Source: Streptomyces sp. SID14436
GTDB lineage: Bacteria; Actinomycetota; Actinomycetes; Streptomycetales; Streptomycetaceae
DNA: 64,000 nt
Direction of reading: 5' to 3'
Assembly: GCF_010548465.1 (NCBI RefSeq)
Contig: NZ_JAAGMD010000321.1
Coordinates: 1-64,000 of the forward strand
Under the pieces are notes generated by a model, which saw only the letters and a list, made by a program, of their open reading frames with translations, was not told the origin of the DNA and made no database searches. Below, one piece after another: positions 7,345-19,272 of this stretch (within the stretch, counting starts at the first letter, position 1; every line of letters begins with the position of its first letter). Made by a program: the position numbers and the translations under genes.

Positions 7345-9714
7345 GTCCTGTCCTCCTGCGGGGGGTCGGTTTCGGCGGGCAGGTCCAGCAGGTGACGCGC
7401 CACGCTGTCGAGGCTGTCGTCCAGGTCACCCAGATCCGCCAGGAGCGAGGACACTTCGGTGTCCGCGCCGCCCGGAGCGTCCGGTCCGTGGGCGGGCCTG
7501 GGCGCGATCTCTTCTTCCGCGGGGGAATACAGGCTCGGCTCGTCCAGCTCCAGCACCGTCAAGGGTCCCAGCGCGTCCAGGTCCAGCGCCTCCGCGTCGG
7601 CGAACGGGTCGAAAACGCCGTCACCGGACGGCTCCCACCCGCCATCCAGCCCCGGCACGGGCGCGTAGCCGTCGGGCACGCTCACCACACCCGGGTCGTC
7701 CGGACCCTGTCCCGCCCGCTCCAGCAGGTCGGCCAGGACCTGCGCGATGGCTTCGTCCTGCGTGTGGCGGCCGCCGCGCGCCACGTACTCCGCGGTGGCC
7801 GAGTCCCACAGGTGCTGTGTCCACGGGGCGCCGATCAGGTGCTGGTGCTTGAAGACCGGCAGTGATCCACTCGCCGGAGCGGTGGTCGCGCAGCCACACC
7901 TGCTCGGGCGTGTAAGGGTTGTAGCGCAGCTCCCACCCGTCACGCTTCTTGCCCTTGAGCCCCGACGGCGTGTTGCGGACCTCCTCGAGTTCCCCTTTGA
8001 AGTTGTCGTAGGTGCGGTTCTTGAACCGGATGCCGTCATCGCGCACCCCGACCCAGGCGGTGGGCAGCAGCTGGAGGTAGTCCGCAAAGCCCAGCGGGAT
8101 CGGTAGGTAGCCAGCCGCCTGCACGCCCGCTGCGTACATCTGGTTCGGAGTCAACGGCGGCAGGTTCGGCTCGTAAGGGCTGCGCAGCTCCTCATGCGGC
8201 CGCGCCTGCCAGCCGACCGCGATCCACTCCTGCAGCAGATTGTCCAGCTCCTGCAGCGTCCACAGCCGGTCCGGATCGATCTCTTTCCCGCGGCGGCTGA
8301 AGTCCCGCCCGGTGTAGGAGTTGACGTGCTGGCTGAACAGCGACTTGATCGACGCAAAGGTCCGCTCGACGATCGCCTTGTCGGTCGGGGTGCGCTTGCG
8401 CGCCGGACGCACAGAGATGCCGAGGTAGGAGCAGGCGTCGAAGAAGGTTTGCCCGGTGAAGACCGTGCCGTGGTCGATCACGATCGTCTCCGGCATGATG
8501 ACCGGCCGGGCCGCTGCGTGCTCCATCCGCGCGTCGACCTCTAGCAGTTCCTCATACGGCAGATCCGAACGGGCCGCGGACGCGGCCCCGTCGAAGCCAG
8601 GCCGCATCGGGGCCGGCACCATGCACAGCGCCAGCAGCAGTGAGGCGTCCACTGCCTTGGTGGCCCGCCCCTTGCTCGTGCCGGTGCTCAGCAGCGCCCT
8701 CGTCTGTTGCCGGGTCTTGCGCCGGCCCGCAGTCTTGGGCCGTAGCACGGCTGCGATGATGCTGCGCGTGAAAACGTCGATGGCTGCCGTGAGTTCCACC
8801 TGGGTGGGCCGTCCGTCATCGCCCAGCACTTTGACATCCAGCGCGGTGGAGTCGATCTGCACGAGCTCGCCCGGCGCGGTGGCGGTGGTCACAGCGAACG
8901 GCGGGGCCGGACGGTTGAGACGGTCCTTGCGGCGCCGGGTGGGATCCCGCAGCTGAAGCGCGTCGATCCCCAGCCGCTTCAACAGCGCGTACAGCGTGGG
9001 GTCGGCCGGCACCTTCACGCCGGGGCCCAGCCTGGCCCGTGCCGTGCGCCGCAGGTTCTTGAACAGCGTGCGGGCGTCGGTGGCGGCTTCTTCTTTCGCC
9101 TGGCGTTCCTGCAGCGCCAGCAGCAGGTCCACCACCCGAGCATCGGTGCGCCCGTTCACCGTTGTCTGGCGGGTACGCCGCTTATCGATGAGCCCCCAGA
9201 TGTCCTCGCGAAGAAAGGCCAGCCGCTTGCGCTGGACCGTCTTCCACGACACCTTCCAACCCAGCACGGCCTGCAGCTCGGCAGCCTTGCGTTCATAGCG
9301 CTCGACCAGCGTGAACAGCTCCGGGTCATAACCTTCCCGCGGTCTGCTGCCCTCGGGGACCTCCGGCAGCAGACCGGTGTCGACCTCGATGACGTGCCGC
9401 CGCCACATCCGTGCTTCATGGGCGCACTCGGCACTGACCCCCTCCAGCATGGACCAGTTCGGCAGCGGCTCCGCCGACACCGGCCGGCCCGACCGGTCGA
9501 GCACGGCGAAGTCCCCGGCTGCGGCCAGGAACTGAATCGGCACCGACACCGCAGGCGCCGCCCCACCTGAGGCAGGCTCCAGATGCGCCGTCGTACCCGA
9601 CAGGGCCGAGACGCCATAGTGGCTGCCCATCCAGCGCACCTGGTCGCCGGGCGCCAGAATGCCGCGCGGCGCCAGGCCAGCGGCCGGGGGCTGGCTCTCC
9701 GGCACCACGCTCAC
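7341..9714 (-). pseudogene. TnsB/TniA-like DDE transposase, frameshifted near the C-terminus
   Basis: Retroviral-integrase-type transposase of the Mu/TnsB/TniA group. The catalytic triad is visible: Asp288 (ELVQIDSTALDV), Asp414 (TIVIDHGTVF) and Glu450 (AIVERTFASIKS), with 35 residues between the second Asp and Glu. A beta-barrel-like Mu C-terminal region follows. The opening frame runs 9714-7621, but homology leaves it at about residue 618: after EWIT the sensible continuation (PVFKHQHLIGAPWT) lies in the +1 frame, so one extra base sits near position 7860. The second frame runs about 173 more residues to 7341 and overlaps the tnsC start by ATGA, as expected for the authentic end. The start overlaps the tnsA stop (9711-9714). 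Could be a real inactivating mutation, a sequencing error or, less likely, a recoding site. Confidence 0.8.
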
Positions 9715-10469
9715 GCTGTCTTCCCCTCAAGGGGCTGCCCCATCGCCGACGGCATCCGGCCCGACAATCTGATCACACTGCTCGGGCCCATGGCCTTGTT
9801 CCACTCCATGCCCAGCTCCTGCCGCCACAGCAGGTGATACAGGCGCGGCAGCGTCGACAGTCGCGGCAGCCCCGTCGCCCGTACCCCCTCCTCCAGCTCG
9901 CAGGGAGTCCGGAACGCGGCCTTCAGAGCCTGCTCGACCTCCCGGTCGCCCCACCGCGGGTGCCGGTAATGCGACACCCACCGCAGGTTCGCCAGCGCCA
10001 TAGGTCCCGGAATCCGCGGCATCCCCAGCTCCCAGCCCGCCTCCTGACAAGCCTGGCGCAACACCTGCTGCTGACGCTGCCACCGCGGACTCGGCCCGCT
10101 CGCCGGAGGGCAGGCAACGACCAGCGTCGCCCCCTGATCCGTGCGCACGAAGAAGTCCGGCACGACGCTGCGCTCCCGGCCCCGCGCACGCCACTTGATC
10201 TTCGCGGACCAAGCGGTGAACTCCGTCACCGACGGGCTGAAATCCAGCAGCATGGCCACCGCCAGCACGTTCATGGACCGGCAGCCCACGTGCTTGCCGG
10301 TCGTGGCGGCCCACCACCAGGTAGCAATGCTGCGCTGAGAGGGATGCCGGGCCGGACGCCACACCTCGCCCCGGCGGGTGAGCGGAACAGAGCCTGCCTG
10401 GGCGACGGGGACCGTGATGCTCCTGCTGCCGTCCTCAAGGCGGTGGACCGCCATCAATGCCTCAGCCAT
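9711..10469 (-). CDS. TnsA-like transposase endonuclease subunit
   Basis: A 252-residue protein resembling the TnsA-like heteromeric transposase endonucleases, which cut the 5' ends of Tn7-type elements while TnsB cuts the 3' ends. The core shows the family order: a short N-terminal segment, SMNVLAVAMLLDFSPSV, then TEFTAW with a candidate catalytic Glu, VVPDFFVRT with the Asp, and a strand LVVACP where family members normally carry a catalytic Lys or a D-V-R/K. That lysine is not obvious here, so cleavage competence is doubtful. I prefer the ATG at 10469, which has GGGAG four bases upstream, over a GTG at 10514. It overlaps tnsB by four bases, indicating coupled translation as the first gene of the operon. 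Confidence 0.72.
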   Translation of the reverse strand: MAEALMAVHRLEDGSRSITVPVAQAGSVPLTRRGEVWRPARHPSQRSIATWWWAATTGKHVGCRSMNVLAVAMLLDFSPSVTEFTAWSAKIKWRARGRERSVVPDFFVRTDQGATLVVACPPASGPSPRWQRQQQVLRQACQEAGWELGMPRIPGPMALANLRWVSHYRHPRWGDREVEQALKAAFRTPCELEEGVRATGLPRLSTLPRLYHLLWRQELGMEWNKAMGPSSVIRLSGRMPSAMGQPLEGKTA

Positions 10470-10776
10470 CGTGCTCCCGCATCTGTCCGGCCTCTGCAAA
10501 TCCTCATATTGCACGGCGAGTTGACTTTAGTGCGGGGGGAGATGGCCAAGGGTCAAATACCGTCATCCTCAAAGCTGCCGACCGTCCCGCCGACGGCCGG
10601 CGTGACGCCCCGCAGGGCGAGACCATGACCACCCTCACCTCTCCCTGCAGACCGCTGACCTGGACGGTCCCACGCCAGCCGCTTATCCGTCCTGTCCCGG
10701 GCCGCACCTGCCGACACAAGATCCACGATGACCGGATGCCGACGCCGCACGCCGTCGGCCTGCCAGATTCGGCTGC

Positions 10777-12831
10777 GTGCGAGAAGACCACCCCGACACC
10801 TCCGATCTCCACGCCCGCGTGGACGGGCTCCTCGCCGACCTGGCAGCACGGCGCAGCCCCCTGCCACCGGCCTGCGAACGGACCCGGCTGCGCGAGGCCG
10901 CGGGCCTGTCCCCTGCACAGGTAGCGGACACCCTCGTCTGCCAGGCTCAGGACATCGAGGCATGGGAGGCCGGGAATCGGGAACCGATCGGTGTTCGTCG
11001 CACGGCTTACGCGCGGCTTCTCAAGGGCCTTAAGCACATGGAGAAACCGAAACGGGACGACAAGCTCGTCCCCGGCGAGAGCACCGCATCACCCGCACGG
11101 CCCGCACGGCCCACAGCACCCACGTTGCCCGTCGGTCCGCAGCAGCCAGCGCTCTTCCCCGCATCCGCCGAAGCACCACCACGCCCGCCAGTGGCTAGCG
11201 AACCACCCGTCACGCCCACCGGGCCGCTGGCCGTTATCGACCACGACATCTTCCTGGTCGCCCACTTCACCAACGGCACCCGCCTGCCCCTGGACGCGGA
11301 CGACCTTGTCGGCCTGCTGGAGTGGACGCTGCGCAGCGGTCTGCACCAGGAACGGCTGTCCCCCCAAGGCAAGGACAGTGACCCGCTTATCGTCCTGACC
11401 CCCGCAGCGAGTGCCGCACTGCACCTGCCCGCCCACCTGGAGGACCGAACCGCCCTGTGCCTTCCTGCCGGCCATCCCGTCCTGACGCAGCTGGGGCAGG
11501 CAGGCTTTCTCCTCACCCGCCGCGGCTTCGCCCCGTGGGCCGGGATCTACCGGCCGGTCGTGAACAACAGGCGCGCCTCGGTACACGTCGCCGTCATGGC
11601 CTGGGGAGCCCTGTCTCAGGACGGGTGGAACCTCCCACCACTGCCGCCGTCAGACCTGGCACGGCTGCTGGGCACCTACGCGGCCCGGCTCTTGACCCCC
11701 AGCGGCTCCACCGCGGTCTGCGGCGTCAGACTGATGACAGCCCTGCGGCCACCCACCAAAGCGACCTACGACCCGGCCACCCTCAAATGGGTGTCCGGGC
11801 CCAACCCCGGCGCCCTGCACAAGCCGTTCGAGCCAGCGCCCCCAGAAGCCCCCGACGCCCACCCCCTGGCTAAAGGCCGCCCGCCGGAGCAGGCCATGGA
11901 GGAGGAAGCCTGGGACTGGAGCCGCCCGCCCGACCAGCAGGAGACAGCCGACTTCCCGCACGTCGTCGGACTCGACACCAACATGGCCTTTATCGTCGCC
12001 GCCTCCAGGCTGTCCGTCGGCCGCAATGCCCCGCCCCGCCATGTCACGACACCCGCCTTCGACGAGAAAACTCCCGGCGCCTGGTACTGCGACCTCAGCC
12101 ACGCCCCGCACGACCCGCGGCTGCCCTCGCCTTTCACCGCCACCGGTCAACCCCCGACCAAACCCGCCTGGTACACGACCGTCACCCTCGCCTACGCCAA
12201 GGAACTCAACATCGAGGTCCGGCCTATCGAGGCCTACGTCCGCGACGATCACGGCTCATATCTGGACCCCTGGTACACGCGACTGAGAGACGCCTACCTC
12301 GCCACCATGGCCGACCTCGGAGTACACAAGGACATCCCCCAGGCCGACTACCTGGCCGCCATGAAAAGACTCTCGACGGCAGACCCCGCCCTGCTCGCCC
12401 TGCTCGCAGCGATCAAAGCCACAGGAAAAGGCGGCCTCGGCAAACTCCGCGAAGGCCCCCGTGCCCCCGCCGCCCCCTACACACGCTGGCCCGCACTCAA
12501 CCAGCCCACCTGGCGCCCCGACATCCGTGCCGCCGTCATCTCACGCACCCGCGTCAGCCTGCACCGCAAAATGCGCAGGATGCTCACCGAGACCGGCCGC
12601 GGCCCGCTTGCCGTCCTCTCGGACTGCGTCATCTACCCCGCCCACCAGCCGACCGCCCTCGACGTCGTCCCCACCGGCCCCGACCAGACCGGCATCAAGG
12701 GACTGCTGTGCCTGGGCGTCAACCCCGGCTTCGTCAAAGAAGAAGGCGTTCAGACCATGGCCTGGTACCAGCACCAGCACACCCAAGGCCTCAACCCCGC
12801 CCGCTACATCAAAGCCCACCCCGACGCCTGA
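10777..12831 (+). CDS. tap: Telomere-associated protein Tap
   Basis: A 684-residue protein with the full layout of Streptomyces Tap, which binds the telomere 3' overhang and recruits terminal protein Tpg for end-patching of linear replicons. An N-terminal helix-turn-helix (RLREAAGLSPAQVADTL ... EAWEAGNREP) is followed by a proline-rich linker and the conserved body starting at PLAVIDHDIFLVAHF. It ends in the typical PARYIKAHPDA. The body carries blocks that look like a family B polymerase palm: VVGLDTNMAF (Asp400), IKATGKGGLGKL (Lys547) and AVLSDCVIYP (Asp616). That resemblance is my inference. Start is GTG at 10777, with only a weak ribosome-binding site. Unusually, tpg does not follow directly: a minus-strand tniQ-like gene intervenes. 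Confidence 0.9.
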   Translation: MREDHPDTSDLHARVDGLLADLAARRSPLPPACERTRLREAAGLSPAQVADTLVCQAQDIEAWEAGNREPIGVRRTAYARLLKGLKHMEKPKRDDKLVPGESTASPARPARPTAPTLPVGPQQPALFPASAEAPPRPPVASEPPVTPTGPLAVIDHDIFLVAHFTNGTRLPLDADDLVGLLEWTLRSGLHQERLSPQGKDSDPLIVLTPAASAALHLPAHLEDRTALCLPAGHPVLTQLGQAGFLLTRRGFAPWAGIYRPVVNNRRASVHVAVMAWGALSQDGWNLPPLPPSDLARLLGTYAARLLTPSGSTAVCGVRLMTALRPPTKATYDPATLKWVSGPNPGALHKPFEPAPPEAPDAHPLAKGRPPEQAMEEEAWDWSRPPDQQETADFPHVVGLDTNMAFIVAASRLSVGRNAPPRHVTTPAFDEKTPGAWYCDLSHAPHDPRLPSPFTATGQPPTKPAWYTTVTLAYAKELNIEVRPIEAYVRDDHGSYLDPWYTRLRDAYLATMADLGVHKDIPQADYLAAMKRLSTADPALLALLAAIKATGKGGLGKLREGPRAPAAPYTRWPALNQPTWRPDIRAAVISRTRVSLHRKMRRMLTETGRGPLAVLSDCVIYPAHQPTALDVVPTGPDQTGIKGLLCLGVNPGFVKEEGVQTMAWYQHQHTQGLNPARYIKAHPDA

Positions 12832-12863
12832 CCCCTCCCACGCCGATGCCACCTGCCCCACAC

Positions 12864-13931
12864 CTACTGCGTCGGCCGCCACGGCATGCTCGTCATCCGC
12901 GCTCCCAGACGCCACGGAAGACACGACGCCTCCTCCAGCGGACCATGCACCGGAACCACACGATGCGGCTCCAGCAACGCCAGCGGCACACTCCGGGGAT
13001 GCGCCCGCGCATCCTGCCGCGCCAGACGCTCGACGACCGGCACCGTATTGCGGTGCGACATCAGCCACGCCTCCAACCCCCGATGCCCCCCGGCGGCCAT
13101 CTCCTCACCCATCCCCAGCCGTTCACCCACCCACTGCACCCACCGCCCCGTCGACCACCCCGCAGGACCGCCCGCGAAATTGCGCCCCACCGCCCGCTGC
13201 CGCTCCCGCACGGCCATCGCCTCCGCCACGATGACCACCTCCGGATACACCACCAGGGGAACAGCCCACAGCGCCGAACGATCCACCCCCAAAACCTCCT
13301 GCCGCGCCCGCCACACCCCACGCCAGGCCATCTGACGGCACTGCCACCAATACACCGCCACCTGCTGCGCATCCGCCAGCAGAGCCCGCGCGTACAGACC
13401 TGTACGACGCTCCAGACCCACCCGCCGCACGTGCGCCTCCACCACCTCTGGCAACCGCTCGAGGCCGACCTGGAACTGCCCCCGGCCCACAGCCGTCCAC
13501 CGTCCGTGCCGCACACACACCGCCCACTGCCCACCGCCCACCCGCCACACCGGACGCTCACCGAGCCCAGCCGCGCACAACGCACAGGCCTGCACCGGCA
13601 TCCAGTTCTCCGGCCAGGCTTCCACCTTCACCTGGTGGCGGGCCCGCGGACCGATGCCGCTGTCGCCGAGCGACACCAGCGCCCGTTCCAGATGCGGCAA
13701 GGGCCGTCCACTGACCTCCGCCAGACGCTGACGCGCCGCAGGCCCCAGACGCACCTCCTCAGCACCCGGATCAACCGCCCGGATGGTCCTCGGCGCACCG
13801 ATGTACTGAGCCAGCTCCTCGAAGGCCATCCCATTGCGCACCGCGAGCCGCCACAGATACGACGCGATCGTCTCGCCGCGCACCATCACCACACGTCCCG
13901 GCAACCGCGGGAGCGGCTCTTCGATCCTCAT
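12864..13931 (-). CDS. TniQ-like target-selection protein between tap and tpg
   Basis: A 355-residue TniQ/TnsD-type protein. The N-terminus has the family signature: LPRLPGRVVMVRGETIASYL, then WRLAVRNGMAFEELAQYIG. A zinc-binding segment follows (ACALC ... WAVCVRHGRW, the C-x2-C ... C-x2-H pattern) and then a tryptophan-rich helical region. TniQ proteins choose the target site for Tn7/Tn5053-type transposition together with TnsC/TniB, so this is the probable partner of the tnsABC operon at 6.3-10.5 kb. It is convergent with tap (33 bases between stops) and divergent from tpg (69 bases between starts), an arrangement that breaks the usual tap-tpg operon. Start ATG 13931 is chosen because it opens the family signature; the frame continues upstream but overlaps tpg. 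Confidence 0.78.
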   Translation of the reverse strand: MRIEEPLPRLPGRVVMVRGETIASYLWRLAVRNGMAFEELAQYIGAPRTIRAVDPGAEEVRLGPAARQRLAEVSGRPLPHLERALVSLGDSGIGPRARHQVKVEAWPENWMPVQACALCAAGLGERPVWRVGGGQWAVCVRHGRWTAVGRGQFQVGLERLPEVVEAHVRRVGLERRTGLYARALLADAQQVAVYWWQCRQMAWRGVWRARQEVLGVDRSALWAVPLVVYPEVVIVAEAMAVRERQRAVGRNFAGGPAGWSTGRWVQWVGERLGMGEEMAAGGHRGLEAWLMSHRNTVPVVERLARQDARAHPRSVPLALLEPHRVVPVHGPLEEASCLPWRLGARMTSMPWRPTQ

Positions 13932-14000
13932 GCAGTGATCGTCACAACCCCCGCCGCCGGCGCCACACAAACAAGCCACCCACCACGAAAGCTGCCCGCC

Positions 14001-14570
14001 GTGCCTTTGAGGCTGAGCGCCGACACCGTCCAGGAAGCACTCGACCGGGCCGACTCCCGGCACTGGACCCGCAACCCGCCCCGTTCCATGCGGGTCCGGC
14101 TCACCTACCTCCTCAAGCACTACGAGCCTGCCGCCCTTGCCCGTCGGCTCCAGACGACACCCTCCCACCTGGACGCTCTGCTCGACGCTCAGCAGGTAGC
14201 GGAAGACGACCTGCATAACGCAGTGGAACGCGAAGTCGTCCGGATATGGCAGCCTCGCGTCCGCCGCCGCGCCCACGCCACCCTCCTCGCCAACGGCGGC
14301 CGGATGACACTCAGCTTCCGCGCATGGCTGGGATTCACCGCAACAGCCGGATCAAGTGACGACCCACGCCTGCGCTTTTTGAGCCTGCACCTGGACGCCC
14401 CCTTTCCGGAACGCCTGTTCACCGCCCGGCGCATCGGAGCACCGGAATCAGAACTGCAAGCCATCCTCAACGACGCACTCAGCACGTGCTACTTCCACCG
14501 CGGCCGGCCCGCACACCTCAGGGAGAGCGTGAGCCTCGACCGCATCGACTTCCTGGAGTTCTACTACTGA
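14001..14570 (+). CDS. tpg: Terminal protein Tpg
   Basis: A 189-residue protein matching Streptomyces Tpg, the protein covalently attached to the 5' ends of linear chromosomes and plasmids that primes end synthesis; the family is usually about 185 residues. Visible family features are the N-terminal segment MRVRLTYLLKHYEP, a helix-turn-helix (AALARRLQTTPSHLDALL), the WQPRVRRRA basic block, FRAWLGFTATAGSSDDPRLR and the closing SLDRIDFLEFYY. The GTG at 14001 opens the homologous region; the same frame is open far upstream but only as a shadow of tniQ. It has its own promoter region in the 69-base gap, because tap lies beyond the oppositely oriented tniQ gene. Transcription independent of tap is therefore likely. 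Confidence 0.88.
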   Translation: MPLRLSADTVQEALDRADSRHWTRNPPRSMRVRLTYLLKHYEPAALARRLQTTPSHLDALLDAQQVAEDDLHNAVEREVVRIWQPRVRRRAHATLLANGGRMTLSFRAWLGFTATAGSSDDPRLRFLSLHLDAPFPERLFTARRIGAPESELQAILNDALSTCYFHRGRPAHLRESVSLDRIDFLEFYY

Positions 14571-15849: not shown

Positions 15850-16446
15850 ATGCTGCTGACGACCGGTCAGGCGGCAGACGAACTCGGCTGTGCGATCACC
15901 ACCTTCCGCCGCCTCGTGCATGCCGGCCTGCTGCCAGGCCTGTCCCGCCGTGGCGTACGCGTCATGATCCCCCTGGACGCGGTCCAAGCCCTCGCCACCC
16001 GCCGTCGCGCCCCGCTGGAACAACTGGACGTCACGGAGATCGCTGTGTTGCGGGTCGACGCAGCCCGCCCGGCCCCCGAGCCCGACCGGCGATGGATCGG
16101 CTTCGCCGCCACCCTCACCCCCGACGACCTGCTCAAGGCCCTGCGCGGCTGGTGGCGCTGCGACCCGGTAAGCGTCGCGGCTGGGGGAGTACTCCCCGTG
16201 ACCCTGTCGGGCTACGTCGTCGCCGTCCTGACCGGCCTGCAGGCATGGGAAAAAGACTCAACCGGCCGCCACACCTTCTCCCAGGCTCGCCTGGCCGGCT
16301 ATATCACCGACCTGGCCGCACCCCGCAGCACCCTCACCTCCGGCAGGGATGGTGATCAACACCTTGCCGAGTTGCTGCTGGGTTCCCGCCTGCCCTCCGA
16401 CTCCGGCGGGGCGATCGCCTACGTCACTACCCGTACCGCCAACTGA
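15850..16446 (+). CDS. Helix-turn-helix protein, first gene of a Tap-like operon
   Basis: A 198-residue protein with an N-terminal MerR/excisionase-type winged helix: LLTTGQAADELGCAITTF, then RRLVHAGLLPGLSRRGVRVM, then LDAVQALATRR. The remainder (WRCDPVSVAAGGVLPVTLSG ... VLTGLQAWE) is conserved in Streptomyces plasmid proteins, but I know no function for it. Start is fixed by GGGAGG at 15839-15844 before the ATG. The next gene begins 28 bases after the stop and the third overlaps the second, so these three form an operon. A regulatory or DNA-recruitment role for the operon is inferred only from the HTH. It lies immediately outside the 1,043-bp element. Confidence 0.65.
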   Translation: MLLTTGQAADELGCAITTFRRLVHAGLLPGLSRRGVRVMIPLDAVQALATRRRAPLEQLDVTEIAVLRVDAARPAPEPDRRWIGFAATLTPDDLLKALRGWWRCDPVSVAAGGVLPVTLSGYVVAVLTGLQAWEKDSTGRHTFSQARLAGYITDLAAPRSTLTSGRDGDQHLAELLLGSRLPSDSGGAIAYVTTRTAN

Positions 16447-16474
16447 ACGCCAGGCCCGGACAAGGAAGCCCCTC

Positions 16475-18550
16475 ATGGACGCACAGAGCTACAACGCCGC
16501 GCTCGCCGACCTGCGCGCCGTGCGGGACCAGATCAAGAAGGCCCGGGCGGCGCTGGCGAAGCTCGAAAATGACCGGGCTAGGCGGATCGCCCAGGTGGCC
16601 TCCTACGAGAAGGCCAAAGCAGAGCGGATCGCCCCGGCCGCCGGGCTGAGCGTGTCCGACGTCGTCGCCCTCGTTCCGTCCCTGGCGCCCGACAGCCTCA
16701 CCGCGGAAAATGCCGAGGTGCCGGCTACCGCCGCGCCTACGCTGTCCGAGGACGCCGAGCTGGAACTGGCCACGCAGCCCGCCGCAGTGGCGCCCGCCCT
16801 GCGTACCGCGCGGCCGCAGGCCGCCCCCTCCGAAGCCCCCGCGGTGACGGCAGCCGCGGATGCGCCGCGTGCTCTTCCCTCCATCCCCGAGGGGGAGACG
16901 GGCGATGCCTGGTTCGCCCATACGACCGGCCTGGCCTCCACTCGGCCGAACTTCACCCAGCAAGCCCGCTCCACCGTCTTCCTGGACACCGACACCGGCG
17001 TGCTGGTCCATCGCAACCAGACTCACCACCTCGACCTCGGCACCAGGTCGGCCGCGGACATCCTCACCGCCGTCTTCCACACCATCCCCGAGGGCGTGGA
17101 ACGGATCTACATCACCGCCGGCGACCCCTGGCACCGCGACGCCGACCGCTACCCCTATCTTCGCGATGCGGTCGCCGCCTGGCTGAACGCCCCCATCCCG
17201 GGCTGGCGTACCGACACCGGCCGCGGCCGCGACCGGATGGCCGGGCACTTCGTCCACGCCCGCAACCCCGTCGGCCGCTACCAACGCGACAGTGGCGACA
17301 GCCACGTGGAGATCCGCTCGGTGGGGGAGTGGTTCGACACCAACGGCGACGACCCCGCCACCATCCGAGACGCCTTCGTCCTGCTGTGGCAGGCCCTGCG
17401 CCGCCACTGGAACGACGCCGTCATCATGGGCTCCCCCTCCCAGACCGGCCGCGACCTGTGGACCCGCACCATCCCCACCCGCGGCCAGCACGCCGACGGC
17501 TACCCCGTCCTGTCCGAAGAACTGCGCGGCCTCCTCCACGCCACCGCCGGACAGGGCCGCAACGAACTCATCACCCCACCCCGCGTCCCCGACGAACTGC
17601 CCCAACTCGTCGAATACGACCGCACCTTCGCCTACGCCAAACACACCTGGAAATCCCCGGTCGGCACCCCACGCCGCATCACCGCCCACACCTTCGCCAC
17701 CTGGAGCGAGAAGGAACAGATCCGCGCCCTGTACGGGTGCGGCCACTGGCAGGTCCGCGTGACGGTCCCCGACGCCTGGAACCACGTCGGCCTCCTGCCC
17801 GCCCCCGCCCCCGGCGACCGCGCCTGGCACTACCCGGCCAGCCCCGGCACCACTTTCACCACCTGGGCCAGCGGCCCCGAACTCCATGCAGCCCTGACCA
17901 ACCCCATCCAGCCGTGGAAGATCGAAATCCTCGACGGCATCCTGTGGGACGACGGCAAACCGCTCGACGACTGGGCCAAGAGACTCAAGGAGACCTGGAG
18001 CAACCTCTCCGCCCAAGCCCACTTCCAGGGCGACCCCCAGCAGGCCCGCGCCGCCCACCTCGCCTCCCGCGCCGTGCGCTCCATCCTGCTGTACGGCATC
18101 GGCGCCTTCGCCCAGCGCCCCCGCATGGTCACCGGCACCACCCCCCGCACCATGGAGCGCGACGTACCCGCGGACGCCGAGATCATCGGCTTCGACGACA
18201 ACGTGATCACCTGGCAGAAACCCACGGGCTTTGCCCGAGACCCCAACGCACATCCTGAATGGGCTGCCGCCATCTGGTCCGGCGCCCGCGCCGCCCTCCT
18301 CACCCAGCGCCACCGTGATGACGACACCTACGCCGGAGCCCTCCACACACCCCCCGGCACCGTCGTCGCCTTCCGCACAGACGCCCTCTATCTCACCCAG
18401 CCCCACAACTGGCCCTACCACCACCAGCCCGGCGACTACCTCCTCAAAGGCAACCTCACCGGCCCCTTGGCAGCCCCGACCACCGAAGAGGAACTTCTCA
18501 CCCTGCGGGATGCCGGACGTGCCGCCCTCACCAGTGACCGGGAGACCTGA
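16475..18550 (+). CDS. Tap-like large protein with polymerase-palm-like motifs
   Basis: A 691-residue protein. Residues 1-50 form a coiled coil and an alanine/proline linker follows. The rest shows the same order of blocks as Tap: LVEYDRTFAYAKHTW (Asp382), PIQPWKIEILDGILWDD, LASRAVRSILLYGIGAF (Tyr540), WAAAIWSGARAALLTQ and VVAFRTDALYLTQ (Asp636). These align in order with motifs A, B and C of family B DNA polymerases, as do the equivalent Tap blocks. This is a by-eye comparison, not a search result. The ATG at 16475 has AAGGA upstream. Its stop overlaps the ATG of the next gene (TGATG), as for an obligate pair. SCP1 Tac (with Tpc) is the known non-canonical analogue I would compare first; a plasmid replication protein is the alternative. 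Confidence 0.55.
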   Translation: MDAQSYNAALADLRAVRDQIKKARAALAKLENDRARRIAQVASYEKAKAERIAPAAGLSVSDVVALVPSLAPDSLTAENAEVPATAAPTLSEDAELELATQPAAVAPALRTARPQAAPSEAPAVTAAADAPRALPSIPEGETGDAWFAHTTGLASTRPNFTQQARSTVFLDTDTGVLVHRNQTHHLDLGTRSAADILTAVFHTIPEGVERIYITAGDPWHRDADRYPYLRDAVAAWLNAPIPGWRTDTGRGRDRMAGHFVHARNPVGRYQRDSGDSHVEIRSVGEWFDTNGDDPATIRDAFVLLWQALRRHWNDAVIMGSPSQTGRDLWTRTIPTRGQHADGYPVLSEELRGLLHATAGQGRNELITPPRVPDELPQLVEYDRTFAYAKHTWKSPVGTPRRITAHTFATWSEKEQIRALYGCGHWQVRVTVPDAWNHVGLLPAPAPGDRAWHYPASPGTTFTTWASGPELHAALTNPIQPWKIEILDGILWDDGKPLDDWAKRLKETWSNLSAQAHFQGDPQQARAAHLASRAVRSILLYGIGAFAQRPRMVTGTTPRTMERDVPADAEIIGFDDNVITWQKPTGFARDPNAHPEWAAAIWSGARAALLTQRHRDDDTYAGALHTPPGTVVAFRTDALYLTQPHNWPYHHQPGDYLLKGNLTGPLAAPTTEEELLTLRDAGRAALTSDRET

Positions 18551-19272
18551 TGGCGCCCCCGCCCCGCCGCAGCACTCCAGGCCGTCGGCACCCGTTGAAC
18601 GAGGCCGCCCGACTGGCCGACCGACTCCAGCAACACGGCTACACCAAGCGAGACATCGCCCGCATCATCAACCGTGACCCCTCGCTGGTCTCGCAGTTCT
18701 ACACCAAGAACAAAGGCGCCGCCTTCGTCACAGCCCTGCGCGAAGTGCTCACCGCCGCCGAAACCGGCGGCATCACCGACCTGCCCGAACTGGCCGCCAT
18801 CGCCGCCCGCCACACCCGCCGCCGCACCACCGCATCCGGCGCCCGCGCCCGCGTGCGCACCAAAGCCGTATTGATCACCCCCACCGGCTCCGGCACCGGC
18901 CGCGTCGGCGCCCAGGCCATCGCCTCCGGCTCCGCACGCCTGCGCCCGCTCATCGCCGAAGCCGCCCGCCGCGGACTGCGCCTGGCCTTCACCGTCCGCC
19001 TCGCCAAGACGAGCTACCGCCACCCCTCCGGAAGCAGGACAGATTCTCCCGGCATCCGCCGCGACGTGATCCAGCGCGGCGACCACAGCGAAGAACGCTC
19101 CTACGGCTCCGCCCAGACCGGAGGCTTCGACGCCGCCGACTTCGCCCGCCGTGTCGACGCCGCCGGCGGGGACGTCACCCAAGCCGTACACCAGTGGCTT
19201 GTAGAGACCGGACGCATCCGTCCCGACGCTCAAATCCTCCACCTCGAAGTACGAACCTGGCGTCCGCGCTGA
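18550..19272 (+). CDS. Small HTH protein coupled to the Tap-like gene, candidate non-canonical terminal protein
   Basis: A 240-residue basic protein. An N-terminal helix-turn-helix (ADRLQQHGYTKRDIARIINR, then DPSLVSQFYTKN) is followed by an arginine-rich hinge and a mixed alpha/beta region ending FARRVDAAGGDVTQAVHQWL and DAQILHLEVRTW. The plan (HTH, basic block, closing beta strand) loosely parallels Tpg, and the gene overlaps the stop of the Tap-like gene just as tpg pairs with tap. I see no direct sequence similarity to Tpg. Whether it is a terminal protein like SCP1 Tpc, a partition factor or a replication initiator cannot be decided from sequence. No membrane segment or signal peptide. 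Confidence 0.5.
   Translation: MAPPPRRSTPGRRHPLNEAARLADRLQQHGYTKRDIARIINRDPSLVSQFYTKNKGAAFVTALREVLTAAETGGITDLPELAAIAARHTRRRTTASGARARVRTKAVLITPTGSGTGRVGAQAIASGSARLRPLIAEAARRGLRLAFTVRLAKTSYRHPSGSRTDSPGIRRDVIQRGDHSEERSYGSAQTGGFDAADFARRVDAAGGDVTQAVHQWLVETGRIRPDAQILHLEVRTWRPR

Follow-up and report, generated by a model that had tools for sequence, protein, structure and literature searches.

We report that a three-gene run at 15850-19272 of a Streptomyces draft genome contig very probably (roughly 85%, by our own estimate) encodes a telomere-replication pair of the Tac/Tpc type, the large protein being a reduced protein-primed family B DNA polymerase and the small protein the terminal protein. The window, that is, the whole stretch of DNA analyzed, is the first 64 kb of contig C158 (99,086 bp). 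We refer to the gene of the 691-amino acid (aa) protein as LARGE, to that of the 240-aa protein as SMALL, and to both together as the pair. This assignment has computed support from the predicted fold of LARGE, its invariant catalytic-type Asp, its homology to Tap, the conservation of the pair, and the co-occurrence of the pair with hairpin-rich G-string telomeres. The operon, which starts with a helix-turn-helix (HTH) gene, has the following features, the genome loci counted here and below being the best 80 of 137 confirmed LARGE relatives in bacterial genomes (pI, isoelectric point).

15850..16446, + strand, HTH_17-type DNA-binding gene, first in the operon (HTH_17 match of 32.9 bits, cut-off 27)
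16475..18550, + strand, LARGE, Tac/Tap-type telomere-associated protein with a predicted phi29-type family B DNA polymerase fold (691 aa, pI 6.2)
17618..17620, + strand, codon of Asp382, predicted metal ligand of motif A (EYDRTFAYA), invariant in 20 proteins and in 80/80 Streptomycetaceae
18035..18109, + strand, predicted fingers/motif B helix, residues 521-545 (SRAVRSILLYGIGAF), with Arg535 replacing the usual Lys
18380..18382, + strand, codon of Asp636, an invariant Asp, predicted metal ligand of motif C (AFRTDALYLT)
18550..19272, + strand, SMALL, basic candidate terminal protein (Tpc-like) with an N-terminal HTH (240 aa, pI 11.6)

An earlier note on this DNA had described a large gene overlapping a small basic HTH gene, with another HTH gene ahead. 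This layout is real, as the open reading frames (ORFs) confirm, and the stop codon of LARGE overlaps the ATG of SMALL by one base (18550). While the place and the overlap of the large gene stand, its start does not: the ORF is open from 16349, but we set the start at 16475 because homologues begin at Met43 of the longer frame.

Predicted fold of LARGE and its relation to Tap

Since sequence searches gave nothing useful, assigning LARGE required a predicted fold, which was modeled with AlphaFold2 from 37 sequences (predicted local distance difference test score, pLDDT, 80.2; predicted template modeling score, pTM, 0.71). Among 350,542 PDB chains compared by Foldseek, eight matched this model at E<=0.001, and all eight are phi29 DNA polymerase (E 1.8e-10 to 2.4e-9, probability 1.00), with template modeling (TM) scores that are low (0.34-0.45); the ninth match came at E 0.04. 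VIA-align placed residues 163-690 of the model on residues 4-522 of phi29 polymerase (Z 18.2, root-mean-square deviation 6.2, 432 residues). Archaeal and other family B polymerases followed, and family B accounts for all 50 of the matches listed. By this model, LARGE is predicted to have a family B fold, nearest to the phi29 type.

The predicted order of strands and helices fits such a fold, with motif A at D382, two fingers helices (496-517 and 521-545) that include motif B, and a motif C hairpin at D636. This placement was read from the strand/turn pattern of the model, the aligner giving ranges only. Among 20 actinobacterial proteins from several orders no Asp other than D382 and D636 is invariant, and both are kept in 80/80 genome loci.

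A comparison of LARGE with a profile of nine Taps gave P 8.2e-5. When the C-terminal parts of pAL1-, Rhodococcus-, and Microbacterium-type proteins were included with the Taps, hhalign returned Prob 94.4, E 9.5e-8, and a score of 71.4, to be compared with 13.6-19.0 for reversed controls and a mean of 16.6 (maximum 25.4) for 40 column shuffles. With the less diverse alignment A3 the comparison was weak (P 0.037); it was strengthened by Micrococcales sequences and by the pAL1-type C-termini, which are themselves homologous to Tap (E 1.1e-35). Canonical Taps have an Asp in both motifs (GIDVNMAF, LSDCVVY). Judging from these profiles, LARGE is a distant homologue of the Tap superfamily over the polymerase-like core, and the description of the pair as "non-homologous" in the earlier note does not hold for its large protein. 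Neither LARGE nor SMALL matches the Tap/Tpg models NF047542 and NF047541.

The first 89-143 residues of Tap correspond, in some loci of Kitasatospora and Streptomyces, to a separate gene directly before LARGE (E 1e-23 to 1e-25), as if Tap had been split; by BLAST, the place of the upstream HTH gene is occupied in 6/80 loci by one resembling the N-terminal HTH part of Tap.

According to a 2015 study (PMC4513846), Tap and Tac alone, without an added polymerase, start DNA on Tpg and Tpc; the same study describes them as a new class without a polymerase motif and not homologous to each other, and Streptomyces as lacking a family B polymerase. The predicted fold of LARGE would explain this DNA-starting activity. 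What is new here is that, despite the 2015 description, Tap/Tac-type proteins look like stripped-down protein-primed family B polymerases; a literature search at the level of listings found no published link of Tap or Tac to family B or phi29 polymerase. In the work of Kolkenbrock from 2010, pAL1.101 reportedly has partial family B polymerase motifs and nucleotidylates its terminal protein.

As for SMALL, its structure model shows an HTH. Weak matches of both proteins were set aside: a PHROGs "head-tail adaptor" (E 0.17) and globins among PDB sequences for LARGE, and designed helical repeats among PDB sequences for SMALL, were dropped as chance or low complexity, and a likeness of the C-terminal half of SMALL to the DinB little finger was weak (Z 4.8) and went unused.

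Spread of the pair, telomeres and replicon ends

Relatives of LARGE occur on 58 of 72,556 plasmid records (E<=0.1), mostly from Streptomyces and Kitasatospora; those at 25-32% identity come from S. collinus, Curtobacterium, Micrococcus, Cutibacterium, Clavibacter, Paenarthrobacter, Glutamicibacter, Kineococcus, Rothia, and Microbacterium. There are none among 50,697 phage records and none in viral contigs. SMALL lies downstream of LARGE in 80/80 genome loci, overlapping or abutting it in 68, and a small gene lies 3' of LARGE in 19/19 plasmid loci read (one or two short ORFs intervene in two of them), an order so recurrent that the arrangement exceeds chance. Ratios of nonsynonymous to synonymous substitution (dN/dS) against four relatives are 0.22-0.31 for LARGE and 0.19-0.25 for SMALL (eight comparisons), and both genes are under purifying selection.

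In a 2021 survey (PMC8743542), SCP1-type telomeres are listed for SCP1, pSCO2, and pFRL3 only, pSCO2 being given with tac and tpc. Both pSCO2 and pFRL3 carry the LARGE/SMALL family (2/2 SCP1-type plasmids examined). Moreover, both ends of pSCO2 begin GGGGGGCA, matching the description of the SCP1 telomere assay in PMC4513846, namely six G in a row and then C and A. Because pSCO2 and pFRL3 carry the pair and the ends of pSCO2 fit the SCP1 type, the pair is most likely a diverged Tac/Tpc branch, extending well beyond Streptomyces. Elsewhere, the terminal-protein-bound pLMV7 (PMC3869321) begins CTAGGGGGGGGCAG at both ends; pFRL3 and pC1b have six or seven G at the start of one end, and pAL1 and pBD2 start with CC. 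A published K. viridifaciens tac/tpc (BOQ63_42425/42430; PMC7188733) could not be shown to be identical to the pair on pKVP2 (BOQ63_042775/042770). Other polymerases lie near the pair in places: pFRL3 (L013, 9877-12166) has its own DnaE and a DNA polymerase IV ~2 kb away, and in Paenarthrobacter (L103) a Y-family polymerase adjoins it.

This assignment is set by plasmid and telomere association, not by the sequences of SCP1 Tac and Tpc, which leaves some room, though we consider it improbable, for a separate end-replication class in which the tac and tpc of pSCO2 would be other genes and the likeness of the telomeres convergent. The size of Tpc, 259 aa against 199 aa for the small protein of pSCO2, fits such a class; however, LARGE (645 aa) is by far the largest ORF of pSCO2 (the next is 374 aa), the small gene comes after it, and both SCP1-type-telomere plasmids examined carry the pair. 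Even under this alternative, the pair would remain a system for end replication.

The reading as a telomere-replication pair is also supported by telomere sequences. A plasmid-size contig of S. griseoincarnatus (L022, 105,607 bp), whose LARGE is 81% identical to that of the window, begins GGGGGCGGAG; hairpins with TGNC loops come next, seven of them within 200 nucleotides (nt). Among random internal stretches, 1/400 had three or more such hairpins. With the first 300 bases of this contig as a probe, 9 of 19 pair-bearing genomes matched, every match lying <=400 nt from a contig end, and in 6/9 the telomere is on the pair's own contig (contigs matched by size). Of 199 Streptomyces genomes, 15 carry the pair (E<1e-20, which excludes five genomes with E 3e-4 to 9e-4), and the probe matched contig ends in 4/15 of these (the genome of the window, G059, G093, and G139) vs 0/184 of the others (Fisher 2.2e-5), three weak internal matches in pair-negative genomes not being counted as ends. 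Without G139, the source of the probe, the telomere is found in 3/14 pair-bearing genomes (~3e-4). No match at contig ends was seen in the other 11/15. Ends that are not hairpin-rich G-strings were also found in NBC_00015, S. laculatispora, K. aureofaciens, and pRVR1, and in the chromosomes of GQFP, CB01881, and G076; these assemblies may stop short, but such ends lend no support. Relatives at 81% and 71% identity have G-string starts; in the genome of the window only a hairpin-rich end, lacking the first bases, was seen, at the start of contig C602 (84% identity to the probe, bases 5-160) and not on C158. The first 400 bases of C602 (L196) form a telomere-like start with TGGC loops, of the class associated with the pair.

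The location of the pair points the same way. On chromosomal contigs of at least 8 Mb, all eight placed copies lie <=260 kb from an end: 4-7 kb in GQFP, 12-15 kb in S. stelliscabiei, 1-4 kb in K. cheerisanensis, and 5-9 kb and 253-256 kb in CB01881. The pair of G076 (C1, 9,619,720 bp) is 65 kb from both ends, within both terminal inverted repeats; the ends of this record are identical over 800 bases and not hairpin-rich. The 8.67-Mb chromosome contig of G059 has the telomere at both ends and the pair 34 kb from one of them, with no Tap at E<=1e-30. Tap was likewise not found in GQFP, CB01881, and G076, and K. cheerisanensis has its HTH parts only. Among 13 pair-bearing plasmids, one (from S. 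laculatispora) also has Tpg.

Frequent occurrence on circular plasmids, which the earlier note had said would refute its idea, was not seen: 14/19 plasmid records read are labeled linear and five circular. Two of these five look linear, namely pSCO2, which has telomere-like ends and whose genome paper names it linear in the title, and pCSL1, whose inverted ends are identical (400/400); the other three may be of either form. Nor was a Rep or partition family, the other refuting result that the note had named, found for either protein, the best such match being ParB-like at E 0.01 for SMALL, at the level of the HTH, with none for LARGE. This bears on the view that LARGE and SMALL start plasmid replication as a replication-initiation (Rep) pair, working from an internal origin of linear plasmids rather than from their ends. 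The presence of the pair on many linear plasmids with backbone genes nearby (ParA, helicases) and the weak similarity of SMALL to a ParB/KorB-like HTH would suit this view, but we hold it to be quite unlikely given the protein-primed polymerase fold predicted for LARGE and its homology to Tap, the co-occurrence of the pair with a telomere type, and the copies near chromosome ends (in one chromosome, in each of its two inverted repeats), where a plasmid origin is not required. The fold, the Tap homology, the association with SCP1-type telomeres, the subtelomeric place, and the telomere co-occurrence all support what the earlier note had guessed, namely, another terminal-protein pair.

Several observations weigh against a telomere-replication pair built on a family B polymerase. 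No Pfam or NCBIfam family matched LARGE, and nothing useful came from PHROGs or PDB sequences. Its alignment with phi29 polymerase stops short of the thumb, and its exonuclease-like motif is degenerate. The first position of motif C, normally an Asp in family B polymerases, is R in 61/80 loci and G in 19/80, and in 80/80 R535 holds the motif B position where Lys is usual. The full family B signature is not present, motif C reading R/G-T-D rather than DTD and motif B having Arg535 rather than Lys. SMALL gave nothing significant beyond the HTH when compared with Tpg or pAL1-type terminal proteins, and none of its Ser, Thr, or Tyr residues is shared by all 20 sequences compared, so that no residue stands out as the priming one, although T148, S166, and Y185 are invariant within 39 Streptomycetaceae; in Micrococcales SMALL was equated by position, size, and N-terminal HTH, not found by BLAST. 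C158 has no telomere at its ends. Finally, we expected pair-bearing genomes to lack Tap more often, which they do not: Tap is missing in 4/15 of them (in one of the four, G086, completeness is 78%, so the absence is weak evidence) vs 54/199 Streptomyces genomes overall, and hence the pair does not in general replace Tap.

Neighboring tap/tpg genes and a Tn7-like module

Upstream of the operon, the window holds a divergent tap/tpg interleaved with a Tn7-like module (7621-14570), with transposase-like genes beside TniQ, and a canonical tap-tpg operon lies on the same contig outside the window:

7621..9714, - strand, rve transposase of the Tn7-like module
9711..10514, - strand, possible TnsA of the Tn7-like module
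10777..12831, + strand, divergent Tap with both predicted catalytic Asp (GLDTNMAF, LSDCVIY), 880 bits
12864..14276, - strand, TniQ gene between tap and tpg, part of the Tn7-like module
14028..14570, + strand, divergent Tpg, 128 bits
C158:81220-84030, canonical tap-tpg operon (L181, L183)

Another canonical tap-tpg is on C476 of the same genome. The distance of 1.3 kb to tap/tpg given in the earlier note is right for Tpg, counted to the HTH gene, and Tap lies 3 kb before that gene. Its idea of a second end-replication system on one replicon is better put as three candidate systems on this contig: a divergent tap/tpg linked to a transposon, the Tac/Tpc-like pair, and a canonical tap-tpg.

TniQ also lies between tap and tpg in seven other loci (L039, L043, L048, L052, L055, L061, and L098). 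In four of these (L052, L055, L061, and L098), the Tap-like proteins beside the pair lack both Asp (AVNL; GGHI/DGHI), as if they had been kept solely for telomere binding, perhaps for transposon targeting. Telomeric Tn7-like transposons of linear bacterial genomes are reportedly the subject of a paper. Upstream of the pair in L025 and L034 is another type of Tap-matching protein, with the motif VTALNINGAYL, possibly a further telomere protein family. That LARGE and SMALL themselves might be left over from a protein-primed mobile element, degenerate or put to another use such as telomere targeting, is suggested by this interleaved module and by the loss of both Asp in some adjoining Tap-like proteins, but it is the least probable of the readings considered here given that LARGE keeps both Asp (80/80 and 20/20) under purifying selection, that most plasmid loci read have no module transposase beside the pair, and that phage and viral collections hold no relative.

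Proposed mechanism, wider meaning and known systems

If the pair is of the Tac/Tpc type, LARGE would bind the folded, hairpin-rich 3' overhang at the end of a linear replicon, helped by the upstream HTH protein as a putative telomere-binding module. LARGE would then attach the first nucleotide covalently to SMALL as a primer; because of the telomere type this nucleotide should probably be deoxyguanosine (dG). Since LARGE appears to have no thumb, SMALL may complete the enzyme. LARGE would extend the SMALL-linked strand by a few bases, and host polymerases would fill the remainder, with SMALL staying on the 5' end.

The 2021 survey (PMC8743542) notes many genomes without Tap and Tpg and considers further, undiscovered end-patching systems likely. 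The pair is a concrete candidate for the means by which the ends of linear bacterial chromosomes are completed, and the LARGE family offers testable answers as to the catalytic residues and the proteins that may serve chromosomes lacking Tap. Through it, replicon ends in Streptomyces, Kitasatospora, Micrococcus, Curtobacterium, Clavibacter, and Cutibacterium would be linked to a single family of enzymes. On balance, we lean toward a single superfamily comprising Tap, the Tac-like proteins, and the pAL1.101/Rhodococcus type, all of them stripped-down, thumbless, protein-primed family B polymerases that serve for initiation only and are completed by the terminal protein. If this is true, the telomeres of linear bacterial chromosomes would go back to the capture of a protein-primed replicon of phi29- or tectivirus-like kind, and the HTH part of Tap would be a module that one branch has fused and another encodes separately.

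Compared with phi29 DNA polymerase and its terminal protein, LARGE is alike in its predicted fold (432 residues), in the layout of exonuclease-like, palm, and fingers regions, and in the insertions after motif A and after the fingers. It differs in having 12% identity, no aligned thumb, and a replaced first Asp of motif C, and, if it acts like Tap (13 nt, PMC4513846), it would start a short stretch only. The C-terminal parts of pAL1.101, encoded with pAL1.102 on Arthrobacter pAL1, and of the Rhodococcus telomere-binding proteins are homologous to LARGE (E 1.4e-7) and are likewise followed by a small gene, but these proteins have ~1,700 aa with other domains in front, and their replicon ends begin with CC and not G. 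With Tap/Tpg the pair shares the distant homology of LARGE to Tap, the order of the two Asp motifs, and the gene order, whereas LARGE falls outside the Tap model, SMALL shares an HTH at most, the telomere sequence is another, and the HTH module is separately encoded. As for the Tac/Tpc type, LARGE of the window is ~31-36% identical to the large protein of pSCO2 and has in addition an extra N-terminal region and the upstream HTH_17 gene. The pair is like Tac/Tpc of SCP1 in its large-small order, in the HTH of its small protein, and, as seen for relatives of the pair, in G-string telomeres with short-loop hairpins, and pSCO2, which is reported with tac/tpc, carries the LARGE/SMALL family.

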